Positions 55,997 through 58,637 of a DNA stretch of 64,000 nucleotides are shown here, one piece after another. Origin of the DNA: Bradyrhizobium sp. B124 (lineage in GTDB: Bacteria; Pseudomonadota; Alphaproteobacteria; Rhizobiales; Xanthobacteraceae); NCBI RefSeq assembly GCF_038967635.1, contig NZ_CP152413.1:5770001-5834000 (forward strand), written 5' to 3'. Position 1 is the stretch's first letter. Every line of letters begins with the position of its first letter. The translations under genes were made by a program, and so were the position numbers. The notes beneath the pieces are model-generated. The model did not search any database and was not told where the DNA came from. It worked only from the letters and a program-made list of their open reading frames with translations.

Positions 55997-57133
55997 TTAG
56001 GCGCGCCGTGTGGCGCGGCCGGATTCGACGTCGAAAATCTCTCCCGTCGGGCCGATATCGACGAAGGCGGCAGGGTCGGCGCCGGTCATCCAGACCTGTG
56101 CGCCGAGCTTGGCGAGCTCGTCGAAGAGCGCCTTGCGCCTATTGGGATCGAGATGGGCGACGACCTCGTCGAGCAGCAGCAGCGGCACGATGCCGGTCAT
56201 CTCCGCGACCATCGTGGCATGCGCCAGCACCAGCCCGATCAACAGCGCCTTCTGCTCGCCGGTCGAGGCGTCGCGCGCCGGCATGCTCTTCGGCGCGTAG
56301 ATCACCTGCAGATCGGTCAGATGCGGTCCGTCGAGCGTGCGCCCGGCGGCGGCGTCGCGCGGACGGCTGGCGCGCAGGATCTCGCGGTAGCGGTCCTCCA
56401 CCGCGGTCGCGGGCTCCTGCAGCAGCGCGTTCTCCATCCAGCCGTCGAGCATGATCTCGGCGGAGGGGAAGGCCGAGGCGGCGCCGCGCTCGTGCAGCAT
56501 CGCGGCGAGCTTGGCGGCGGTCTGGCCGCGCGATGCGGCGACCGCGACCGCAAGCTCGGCGGTCTCGCGCTCGATCGCGTCACACCAATGGTCGTCGTAG
56601 TTGCGCACTTCGAGCAGCCGGTTGCGCGAGCGCAGCGAGCGCTCCAGCGCCGAGACCCGGCTGGAGTGCTCGGAATCGATCGCCAGCACCAGGCGGTCGA
56701 AGAAGCGCCGCCGCTCGGAGGCGGCGCCCATGAACAGGCCGTCCATCGCCGGCGTCAGCCACACCATGCGCAGGTGGTCGCCGAACGCGGTCGCGGACCC
56801 CACCGGTTCGCGATCGATGCGGCAGCGTCGGCTGTTGCTCGCCTCGCCGGTCGGGGGATCGATGCCGGTGCCGAGCGTGGCGAGGCCGAGCGCACCCTCG
56901 ACTTCGGCCGAGACCGCCCAGGAGCCGTCGCCCTGATTGTCGGCGATGTCCTCCAAGGTCGCGCGGCGTAGCCCGCGGCCCGGCGACAGGAACGAGACCG
57001 CCTCCATGCAATTGGTCTTGCCGGCGCCGTTCGGCCCGACCAGCACCACCATGTCGCCCGCGACCTGCAGCGTCGCCGTCCGGTAATTCCGAAAATGCGT
57101 CAGCGACAGGCGATGAATGCGGGATGGGGTCAT
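55997..57133 (-). CDS. recF: DNA replication and repair protein RecF
   Basis: An SMC-like ATPase of 378 residues that helps RecR/RecO load RecA at gaps. Walker A is in VGPNGAGKTNCMEA (near 33-45), the ABC signature region is STGEQKALLIGLVLAH, and Walker B is PLLLLDEVVAHLD. Its ribosome-site region (AAGGTAAC) lies right at the edge of the GIY-YIG unit inserted between it and dnaN, so transcription from dnaN must cross that unit. Confidence 0.96.
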   Translation of the reverse strand: MTPSRIHRLSLTHFRNYRTATLQVAGDMVVLVGPNGAGKTNCMEAVSFLSPGRGLRRATLEDIADNQGDGSWAVSAEVEGALGLATLGTGIDPPTGEASNSRRCRIDREPVGSATAFGDHLRMVWLTPAMDGLFMGAASERRRFFDRLVLAIDSEHSSRVSALERSLRSRNRLLEVRNYDDHWCDAIERETAELAVAVAASRGQTAAKLAAMLHERGAASAFPSAEIMLDGWMENALLQEPATAVEDRYREILRASRPRDAAAGRTLDGPHLTDLQVIYAPKSMPARDASTGEQKALLIGLVLAHATMVAEMTGIVPLLLLDEVVAHLDPNRRKALFDELAKLGAQVWMTGADPAAFVDIGPTGEIFDVESGRATRRA

Positions 57134-57141
57134 GTTACCTT

Positions 57142-57507
57142 GTCATTGCCGGGCTTGACCCGGCAATCCATCGTCCGCGCTAGCGGACAATTTCACCATA
57201 TAAGTCTCGCCAGTCGGGATTGCCGGCAACGATCAGATCAATCTTCCACTCACGCGACCAGTGCTTGATGTTTTTCTCGCGCTGAAGCGCCGCGGCGATT
57301 GTCTCATGGGCCTCAAAGTCGACGAGGGTCTTGATGCCGTACCGCTTGGCAAAGCCTTCGGCGAGACCCTCGCGATGCTCGTAAACTCGCCGGACCAGAT
57401 TATTGGTCACGCCAACGTAGAGAGTTCCACCGGGCTTGCTCGCGAGGATGTACACCCAATAGGTCATCTCTTGTTCGATGGATGGCCGGGTCAAGTCCGG
57501 CCATGAC
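57142..57507. mobile_element. GIY-YIG unit with hairpin terminal inverted repeats, family D
   Basis: The 366-bp unit has ends at 57142-57173 and 57476-57507. In inverted orientation they match at 29 of 32 positions. Each end is also a hairpin: ATTGCCGGG-CTTGA-CCCGGCAAT on the left and ATGGCCGG-GTCAAGT-CCGGCCAT on the right, then CCATCG inward. The only gene inside is the GIY-YIG nuclease. No target-site duplication is obvious. It interrupts the dnaN-recF junction. The mobile nature is inferred from structure and from the gene-less relative at 14139-14225. Confidence 0.65.
57180..57467 (-). CDS. GIY-YIG nuclease superfamily protein (UPF0213-like)
   Basis: A single-domain GIY-YIG protein of 95 residues. 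The motif is present as YWVYILAS...TLYVGVTN, with catalytic Arg in NLVRRVYEHREG and Glu/Lys in ALQREKNIKHWSREWK, and NPDWRDLY at the end. ATG at 57467 is used since the motif starts at once; the longer frame enters the right terminal repeat. Small GIY-YIG proteins occur in many copies in rhizobial genomes. Here it fills a hairpin-ended unit between dnaN and recF, which suggests it serves movement of that unit; this is inference. Confidence 0.9.
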   Translation of the reverse strand: MTYWVYILASKPGGTLYVGVTNNLVRRVYEHREGLAEGFAKRYGIKTLVDFEAHETIAAALQREKNIKHWSREWKIDLIVAGNPDWRDLYGEIVR

Positions 57508-57518
57508 GAGAGGAGAAA

Positions 57519-58637
57519 TCACACCCGCATCGGCATCAGCACGTAGAGCGCGCCCTTGCTGTCGCGGTCCTGCACCAGGGTCGGGGAGCCGGGATCGGCG
57601 AGCTTCAGCACCGCGACCTCGCCCTCGATCTGGGCGGCGATGTCGAGCAGATAGCGCGAGTTGAAACCGATATCGAGCGCGTCCGAGGCGTACTCGACCT
57701 CGAGCTCTTCGGTGGCGCTGCCGGAATCCGGGTTGGTGACCGAGAGCACCAGCTTGCCGGCGGACAAGGCCAGCTTCACGGCGCGGCCGCGTTCGCTGGA
57801 AATGGTCGAGACGCGATCGACGGCGGCCTCGAAATCCTTCTTGTCGACCACCAGTTCCTTGTCGTTGTTCTGCGGAATGACGCGGCCATAGTCCGGGAAG
57901 GTGCCGTCGATCAGCTTCGAGGTCAGCACCACATTGCCGAGCGTGAAGCGGATCTTGCCATCCGACAGCTCGATCGAGATCTCGGCGTCGTCGCCCTCGA
58001 TCAGCCGCTGCACCTCGCCGACCGTCTTGCGCGGGACGATCACGCCGGGCATGCCGGTCGCGCCCTTGGGCAGCGGGAGGTCGATCTGCGCCAGACGATG
58101 GCCGTCGGTCGCAACCCCGCGCAGGGTCGCAGCCTTGGCGCTGCCGGCGGCGTGCAGATAGATGCCGTTGAGGTAATAGCGGGTCTCTTCGGTCGAGATC
58201 GCAAACTGGGTGCGGTCGATCAGCCGCTTGATGTCGGATGCCGGCAGCGAGAACGAATGCGTCATGTCGCCGGCGGCAAGGCCCGGGAAATCGCTCTCGG
58301 GCAGGGTTTGCAGCGTGAAGCGCGAGCGGCCGGCGCGCACCGCGAGCACCGAGCGGTCGCCGTCGGCCTCGAGCACGATCTGCGAGCCGTCGGGCAGCTT
58401 GCGGACGATGTCATAGAACATGTGCGCGGGCACCGTGGTCGAGCCGGCGGTTCCGGTCTCGGCGGCCAAGGTCTCCGTCACCTCGAGATCGAGGTCGGTT
58501 GCCTTCAGCGACAATTTGGCGCCCTCGGCGCGGATCAACACGTTGCCGAGGATCGGGATGGTGTTGCGGCGCTCGACCACGCGGTGAACGTGACCCAGCG
58601 ATTTCAGGAGTTGCGCGCGCTCGACGGTGACCTTCAT
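57519..58637 (-). CDS. dnaN: DNA polymerase III sliding clamp (beta subunit)
   Basis: A ring-forming processivity factor of 372 residues with three repeated clamp domains. The start MKVTVERAQLLKSLGHVHRV is typical, and the C-terminus LMPMRV is the usual family ending. It follows dnaA after about 280 bp containing a GC-rich hairpin (near 58850-58876) and precedes the GIY-YIG unit and recF. Its length and composition are ordinary. Confidence 0.97.
   Translation of the reverse strand: MKVTVERAQLLKSLGHVHRVVERRNTIPILGNVLIRAEGAKLSLKATDLDLEVTETLAAETGTAGSTTVPAHMFYDIVRKLPDGSQIVLEADGDRSVLAVRAGRSRFTLQTLPESDFPGLAAGDMTHSFSLPASDIKRLIDRTQFAISTEETRYYLNGIYLHAAGSAKAATLRGVATDGHRLAQIDLPLPKGATGMPGVIVPRKTVGEVQRLIEGDDAEISIELSDGKIRFTLGNVVLTSKLIDGTFPDYGRVIPQNNDKELVVDKKDFEAAVDRVSTISSERGRAVKLALSAGKLVLSVTNPDSGSATEELEVEYASDALDIGFNSRYLLDIAAQIEGEVAVLKLADPGSPTLVQDRDSKGALYVLMPMRV

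Follow-up and report, generated by a model that had tools for sequence, protein, structure and literature searches.

A GIY-YIG nuclease gene between inverted CGTC-tagged REPs in Bradyrhizobium as a probable minimal mobile element

Introduction

The closest described systems in which short bacterial palindromes are tied to one enzyme are those of REPs and RAYTs. RAYTs are HUH tyrosine (Y1) transposases that go with GTAG-tagged REPs (PMC8266576; PMC3733652), and the tag serves as both contact and guide, with CT cleavage beside the REP (PMC8266576). A CGTC-tagged family of REPs was described by Di Nocera et al. in 2013 (PMC3733652). Its members consist of a CGTC or TGTC tag, an 8-9 bp stem starting with AT, a loop of 4-5 nt and a CCA-like tail; they predominate in Alphaproteobacteria, and Bradyrhizobium is listed among their hosts. 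In that paper, CGTC REPs 'apparently lack a dedicated transposase' and have no transposase gene associated with them, broad-spectrum transposases are considered, and the identity of the mover is left open by its describers. The word GIY-YIG does not occur in PMC3733652.

Here we describe a unit found in a window of 64,000 nucleotides of Bradyrhizobium sp. B124, whose genome (G000) is a 9.17-Mb single contig. The ends of this unit are CGTC-tagged REPs, members of the published family, and between them lies a gene for a small GIY-YIG nuclease.

Results

A sequence-only reading of this DNA had reported hairpin-ended inverted repeats enclosing a GIY-YIG gene between dnaN and recF, an arrangement that our analysis confirms. 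The whole unit (REP, GIY-YIG gene, REP; 57141..57508, no strand assigned) measures 368 bp when the 4-nt tags are included, and its CGTC-type tags face outward. The left REP (57141..57170, plus strand) has the variant tag TGTC, a 9-bp stem, a 5-nt loop and a CCA tail, and the right REP (57479..57508, minus strand) has the tag CGTC and is inverted with respect to the left one; tag, AT-starting stem, loop and CCA-like tail are those of the CGTC family. The inverted arms (57139-57173 and 57476-57510) are 35 nt long and 89% complementary. Over the 32-nt span given before, 29 of 32 positions agree and each end is a hairpin, both as reported. The 9-bp hairpins of the two arms had z values of -5.2 and -3.3, with none of 200 shuffles equally good; the stretch scored at -5.2 also includes a second small hairpin (57173..57188, no strand assigned, 6-bp stem), which overlaps the 3' end of the GIY-YIG gene and has similar sequence in other copies at dnaN-recF. 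The upstream neighbour is dnaN (57519..58637, minus strand; over the TIGR00663 cut-off) and the downstream neighbour is recF (55997..57133, minus strand; over the TIGR00611 cut-off). The nuclease gene (57180..57494, minus strand) encodes 104 aa from a TTG or 95 aa from the ATG at 57467, and the ATG is probably the start. It is likely the only gene in the unit; an 81-aa frame overlapping it lies on the other strand. A search of Rfam with 56500-58500 gave no match.

The window protein matches PF01541 with 52.7 bits over a cut-off of 22.6 (5e-14), its sole Pfam match. Residues Y15, Y26, R36 and E73 are invariant in an alignment of 11 sequences of the subfamily (A1), and we take these conserved residues (Tyr15, Tyr26, Arg36 and Glu73) to be catalytic. 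With the domain over the curated cut-off and the Tyr, Tyr, Arg and Glu in place, the protein belongs to the GIY-YIG nucleases. NCBIfam gave only sub-threshold matches to group I intron endonucleases, in two of six proteins, and the single relative among solved structures is a weak one, the UPF0213 protein 1zg2. Among the copies at dnaN-recF the median dN/dS was 0.074 (134 pairs with dS 0.05-1.5, from 19 sequences, L132 being left out for a gap), which indicates purifying selection; one of the 19 sequences has an internal stop. Because of this low ratio, we conclude that the gene is maintained as a protein.

CGTC REPs are dispersed and multi-copy in G000. Over 464 kb of this genome (the window and 20 further stretches, two of which were shifted from their randomly drawn positions) there are 24 REPs of six types, about 52 per Mb, and the REP pairs comprise four of the same type facing outward, one direct and none inward. 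A single REP pattern has 34 matches in G000. When 125 units were compiled, 97 had the YGTC tag at both ends. On the strand leading into the tag, the nine bases just outside it are G-poor, with 6-18% G, against 22-35% from -11 outward (68 units, 136 ends; the close relatives L029-L057, L079 and L093 were dropped, and a few syntenic pairs are still in the set). The strip may reflect a preference for certain targets or belong to the end that is recognised. In 29 REPs located away from GIY-YIG genes it could not be made out clearly, and we therefore give it no weight as evidence.

In G000, PF01541 finds eight loci, which are one 733-aa frame (uvrC by its size) and seven small genes. Inverted CGTC-type palindromes flank six of the seven, each gene having its own type on both sides: L002, L003, L004 and L006 were flagged by the detector, and inspection by eye added L005, which has REP pairs on either side, and L007. 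The seventh, L001, belongs to a different GIY-YIG subfamily and has no palindromes. For wider sampling we scored each gene by the best ungapped match, in inverted orientation, between its two 300-bp flanks, with a threshold of at least 20 and also of at least 14. Among the best 80 matches of the window protein (79 loci, one being too short), 59 reached 20 and 65 reached 14, against 0 and 1 of 288 shifted intervals. In the phylum survey, 89 of 299 Pseudomonadota genomes had a match at 1e-10; 56 of 95 loci from among the strong matches listed reached 20, compared with 0 of 364 shifted intervals and 5 of 298 cases in which flanks were swapped between genomes. A Massilia and a Dehalococcoidia MAG are among the positives, with palindromes of other kinds (L101, L098). 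Genes of the L001 type gave 0 of 30 even at 14, and dnaN, as a further control, 0 of 30. Thus the linkage is specific to one GIY-YIG subfamily among those tested. In 1.5 Mb of loci, 199 strict CGTC REPs lay within 700 bp of GIY-YIG genes and 29 elsewhere.

We rejected chance pairing of gene and palindromes, local repeat density as its cause (by the shifted intervals) and an artefact of the shared fold (by the L001-type subfamily, 0/30). The sequence-only reading had asked whether GIY-YIG genes are always bounded by such ends: other copies often are, and this disposes of the idea, held there to count against a mobile element, that they lack them; but "always" goes too far, as 20 of the 79 loci and 39 of the 95 fall below the threshold and the L001 subfamily has none. 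Weak GIY-YIG matches were discarded as a negative control because they carry palindromes of another type, with 6 of 14 reaching a flank score of 20. These weaker matches pair with CCCTGAGCTTGTCGAAGGGC-like or CATCCTGAGG-type palindromes; at L361, L363, L369 and L374, and at L367 and L007, the palindromes are GCCCTGAGCTTGTCGAAGGGC or CATCCTGAGG..CCTCGAAGGATG.

Nuclease and palindrome types match each other. Over the 125 units (those with matched arms of at least 18, together with five G000 units whose arms were set manually), protein similarity is correlated with REP similarity (Mantel rho 0.54, 0 of 500 permutations). Shared host background as the source of this co-variation was rejected by swapping REPs within the same genome, which gave 0.698 observed against a null of 0.585 (sd 0.024; 0 of 1000; 34 units in 13 genomes). 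Gene and REPs also tend to occur in the same genomes: at least five copies of either of two REP patterns were present in 24 of the 75 genomes that have the strong subfamily and 11 of 224 others (p 7e-9), and in one family the first pattern occurred at least once in 12 of 17 genomes with the nuclease and 15 of 57 without (p 0.0015), both comparisons being without full phylogenetic correction. Nine genomes with at least 10 REPs have no strong subfamily gene; PF01541 finds frames of uvrC length in eight of them, and also two 90-aa frames that are unflanked (flank scores 9 and 8). Such genomes are the expected remains of an extinct mobiliser, yet they are evidence against strict dependence.

The spacer between dnaN and recF was examined in 80 Bradyrhizobium genomes and was readable in 78. 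A GIY-YIG gene is present in 21 of these (20 full-length and one, L186, with an internal deletion, in 149 bp), and the other 57 spacers, of 74-698 bp, lack it. This junction, taken before as among the most conserved in bacteria, is therefore variable within Bradyrhizobium, and the unit is not at this position in all relatives, which would have counted against mobility. The spacers without a GIY-YIG gene that were read contain DUF559 genes flanked by palindromes of other kinds, REP pairs with no gene, or remnants. None of them is an untouched empty site; therefore, loss is as likely as absence there. The expectation of relatives without the unit was borne out, but that of a clean empty site only at murC-murB and not at dnaN-recF. 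A further kind of insert at dnaN-recF has GTAGGGTGGGCAAAG-type inverted repeats (L181 and L206, read whole; L196, L205 and L215, read by their ends). In L176 (G053) the spacer has 1672 bp, and the REP on the side of dnaN is truncated; after it comes a 401-aa frame that we take to resemble a transposase.

At murC-murB, the site of L006, the 12 genomes compared include four with a filled site (404-411 bp), three with an empty one (0, 3 and 7 bp) and five with another repeat-rich insert (191-270 bp). A search of plasmids for a clean insertion pair gave none readable at L441 and L443, and pairs were obtained in Sphingobium and Shinella. On Sphingobium megaplasmids, the spacer between fnrL and a response-regulator gene (fixJ in S. 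herbicidovorans) occurs filled and empty: seven records, three of which were read, align over the whole query, and five other spacers hold a double-tagged palindrome (two), other palindromes (two) or, in S. herbicidovorans, 56 bp without a REP. On the Sphingobium plasmids L447 and L448, a single palindrome with a CGTC tag at both ends stands where relatives carry the whole unit. This double-tagged palindrome looks like a deletion scar, and its sequence is the one that we would expect to remain after a deletion between the two CCCCGGG repeats. In Shinella, a spacer of about 1.2 kb with REPs and the unit is found in two; in H4-D48 the spacer has 637 bp with no REP detected, and in S. zoogloeoides XJ20 the convergent neighbours overlap by 10 bp.

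Homology between copies follows the unit. The unit at the L002 site is in the opposite orientation in G004, and L326 (G248) and L341 (G133) have 514 bp in common at 87%, ending at the REPs, with unrelated flanks. Among locus pairs with aligning genes, 484 are syntenic. Flank homology is lacking in two other groups, one of 258 pairs whose alignment spans the unit between its REP ends to within 20 nt and one of 854 pairs whose alignment stops elsewhere. Two of the 258 reach 87% and the others lie at 64-77%; they come from 58 loci, and only 39 are free of members of the close-relative cluster of the window unit, so the 258 pairs are far from independent. Exact repeats of at least 3 nt, looked for as target-site duplications, flank 4 of 97 units, with 2.1 expected, and none was above chance; the units thus lack this mark of insertion sequences and transposons. 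Some transposon groups, too, make no target-site duplication. L219 (G016:C710) has a tandem repeat, without differences between the copies, of 518 bp that include the GIY-YIG gene and REPs; this could be an assembly effect. On a plasmid of Rhizobium sp. CIAT894 (L441) the unit is followed by two further outward REP pairs of the same type at a distance of 271 bp from each other, which looks like the duplication of a gene-less derivative.

DUF559 genes (PF04480) are present in 79 of the 80 Bradyrhizobium genomes. Matched inverted palindromes of another kind flank 24 of 29 such loci, against 0 of 54 shifted intervals (L381-L410, high-scoring and one per genome, one of the 30 being too short). DUF559 is thus a second nuclease-plus-palindrome design in Bradyrhizobium. 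Its genes lie between CTCCCTC...GAGGG-type inverted palindromes, also in dnaN-recF spacers such as L130, L208 and L183.

Discussion

We consider that the unit is probably a minimal mobile element, selfish and of the REP type, made of a single-domain GIY-YIG gene between two inverted cognate CGTC REPs. Linkage, restriction to one of the GIY-YIG subfamilies tested, type matching, unit-wise homology, presence/absence polymorphism and purifying selection are all observed. The sequence-only reading had proposed a very small autonomous element with a logic like that of REPs and RAYTs. Linkage and type matching support this design, while movement of the unit on its own would be a further step that the nuclease may bring about.

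It must be taken into account that another enzyme recognising CGTC REPs, whether a RAYT, an IS enzyme or host recombination, might move the unit, with the nuclease as cargo or as a beneficial gene. The broad-spectrum transposases considered by Di Nocera et al. (PMC3733652) would be enzymes of this sort, and both REP-rich genomes and REP pairs without the nuclease gene exist. A cargo gene, however, need not co-vary with the ends, yet this nuclease does; moreover, no transposase gene is associated with CGTC REPs according to that paper, and a second gene in the unit seems unlikely. We thus regard a passenger nuclease as unlikely.

A repair function for the host, the chief alternative in the literature, is still less probable. 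Small COG2827 GIY-YIG proteins would then back up UvrC/Cho in excision repair, with the palindromes incidental or serving to remove damage-prone structure. Such a role was proposed for Caulobacter, which has three copies, one of them with an SOS box (PMC1839093), and the strong purifying selection on the gene fits it; but it predicts neither matched inverted palindromes nor co-variation of types inside one genome, and the patchy occupancy of dnaN-recF and the REP-to-REP homology at unrelated loci are equally unexpected. Self-regulation, in which the nuclease would bind or cut the REPs, as operators or as mRNA hairpins, to adjust its own expression and the unit would spread only by ordinary horizontal transfer, seems to us very improbable. 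REPs do abut both ends of the gene, and the contact of TnpA-REP with its REP indicates that such binding is possible (PMC8266576), but the same REP types are dispersed without a nuclease gene, an inverted copy of the unit is found at one site and homologous units end at the REPs.

If the unit is indeed a mobile element, its REPs would extrude as hairpins, on single strands at the replication fork or as cruciforms. The nuclease would recognise its own REP type by tag, stem and loop and would cut at the CGTC tag or just outside; we infer here the cleavage and its place, as well as the causal role of the nuclease in movement and the dependence of joining on the host. To our knowledge, GIY-YIG enzymes hydrolyse DNA without strand transfer, and therefore extra host steps would be needed for movement. 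At a break in another place, the freed segment might then be copied in or joined by host polymerase and ligase or by end-joining. Copying is the part of the proposal of which we are least sure, and we consider it rather doubtful. The gene-less REP pairs would depend on the nuclease in trans as non-autonomous derivatives, in the way that RAYTs are thought to move REPINs.

More tentatively, with a belief that falls a little short of even, we suggest that two or more families of small single-domain nucleases, GIY-YIG and DUF559, each gave rise to a class of autonomous bacterial replicators consisting solely of a nuclease gene and two palindromes, and that the GIY-YIG class is the missing mobiliser of the CGTC REPs of Pseudomonadota, acting by hairpin cutting and host repair without transposase chemistry. 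With a cognate nuclease, the question of what moves CGTC REPs can be put to a direct test that needs one small protein and a single oligonucleotide. If spreading is driven by the nuclease alone, this would be a route of transposition by plain phosphodiester hydrolysis and host repair, and we found no comparable route described. With the similar design around DUF559 genes, 'nuclease plus palindromes' would become a general principle, one that would account for numerous short 'GIY-YIG nuclease family' and DUF559 genes found here and there in bacterial genomes.

As far as could be seen, the parts were already known and the pairing of GIY-YIG genes with REPs is new. The earlier statement that no element of this kind was described must be corrected for the palindromes, which are the CGTC REPs of PMC3733652, and stands for the nuclease-REP pairing within open-access papers. 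No paper joining GIY-YIG or DUF559 genes with REPs was found by title or abstract in the open-access full text, and the word GIY is absent from the cited portions of a survey of REPs from 2025 and a review of MITEs from 2024.

Free-standing GIY-YIG homing endonucleases are selfish intergenic genes that rely on host repair, and homing needs flanking homology: such a gene spreads into a cognate homologous site, and its presence disrupts the cut site. Our units resemble them as selfish intergenic GIY-YIG genes, but they can occupy unrelated sites and bring their own hairpin ends. The occupancy of unrelated sites, as judged from alignments, would speak against classical homing. The structure-specific nucleases of the SLX1 type have the fold in common with the window protein; SLX1-SLX4 acts on branched DNA (PMC8287910). 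With the REPs of Di Nocera et al. (PMC3733652) the unit shares the tag, the 9-bp AT stem, the 5-nt loop and the CCA tail, whereas no transposase gene is reported there as associated; the GIY-YIG nuclease is a candidate for the missing partner of this family. The likeness to REP/RAYT systems (REPtrons, REPINs; TnpA-REP) lies in short tagged hairpins inverted around one nuclease gene, in dispersed gene-less REP pairs and in the correspondence between enzyme and REP type. In contrast to a REPtron, the unit has neither an HUH tyrosine transposase nor a GTAG tag, and carries instead a GIY-YIG protein and a CGTC/TGTC tag. By this analogy, the unit would be close to the RAYT systems in logic, and the chemistry of its enzyme must differ.
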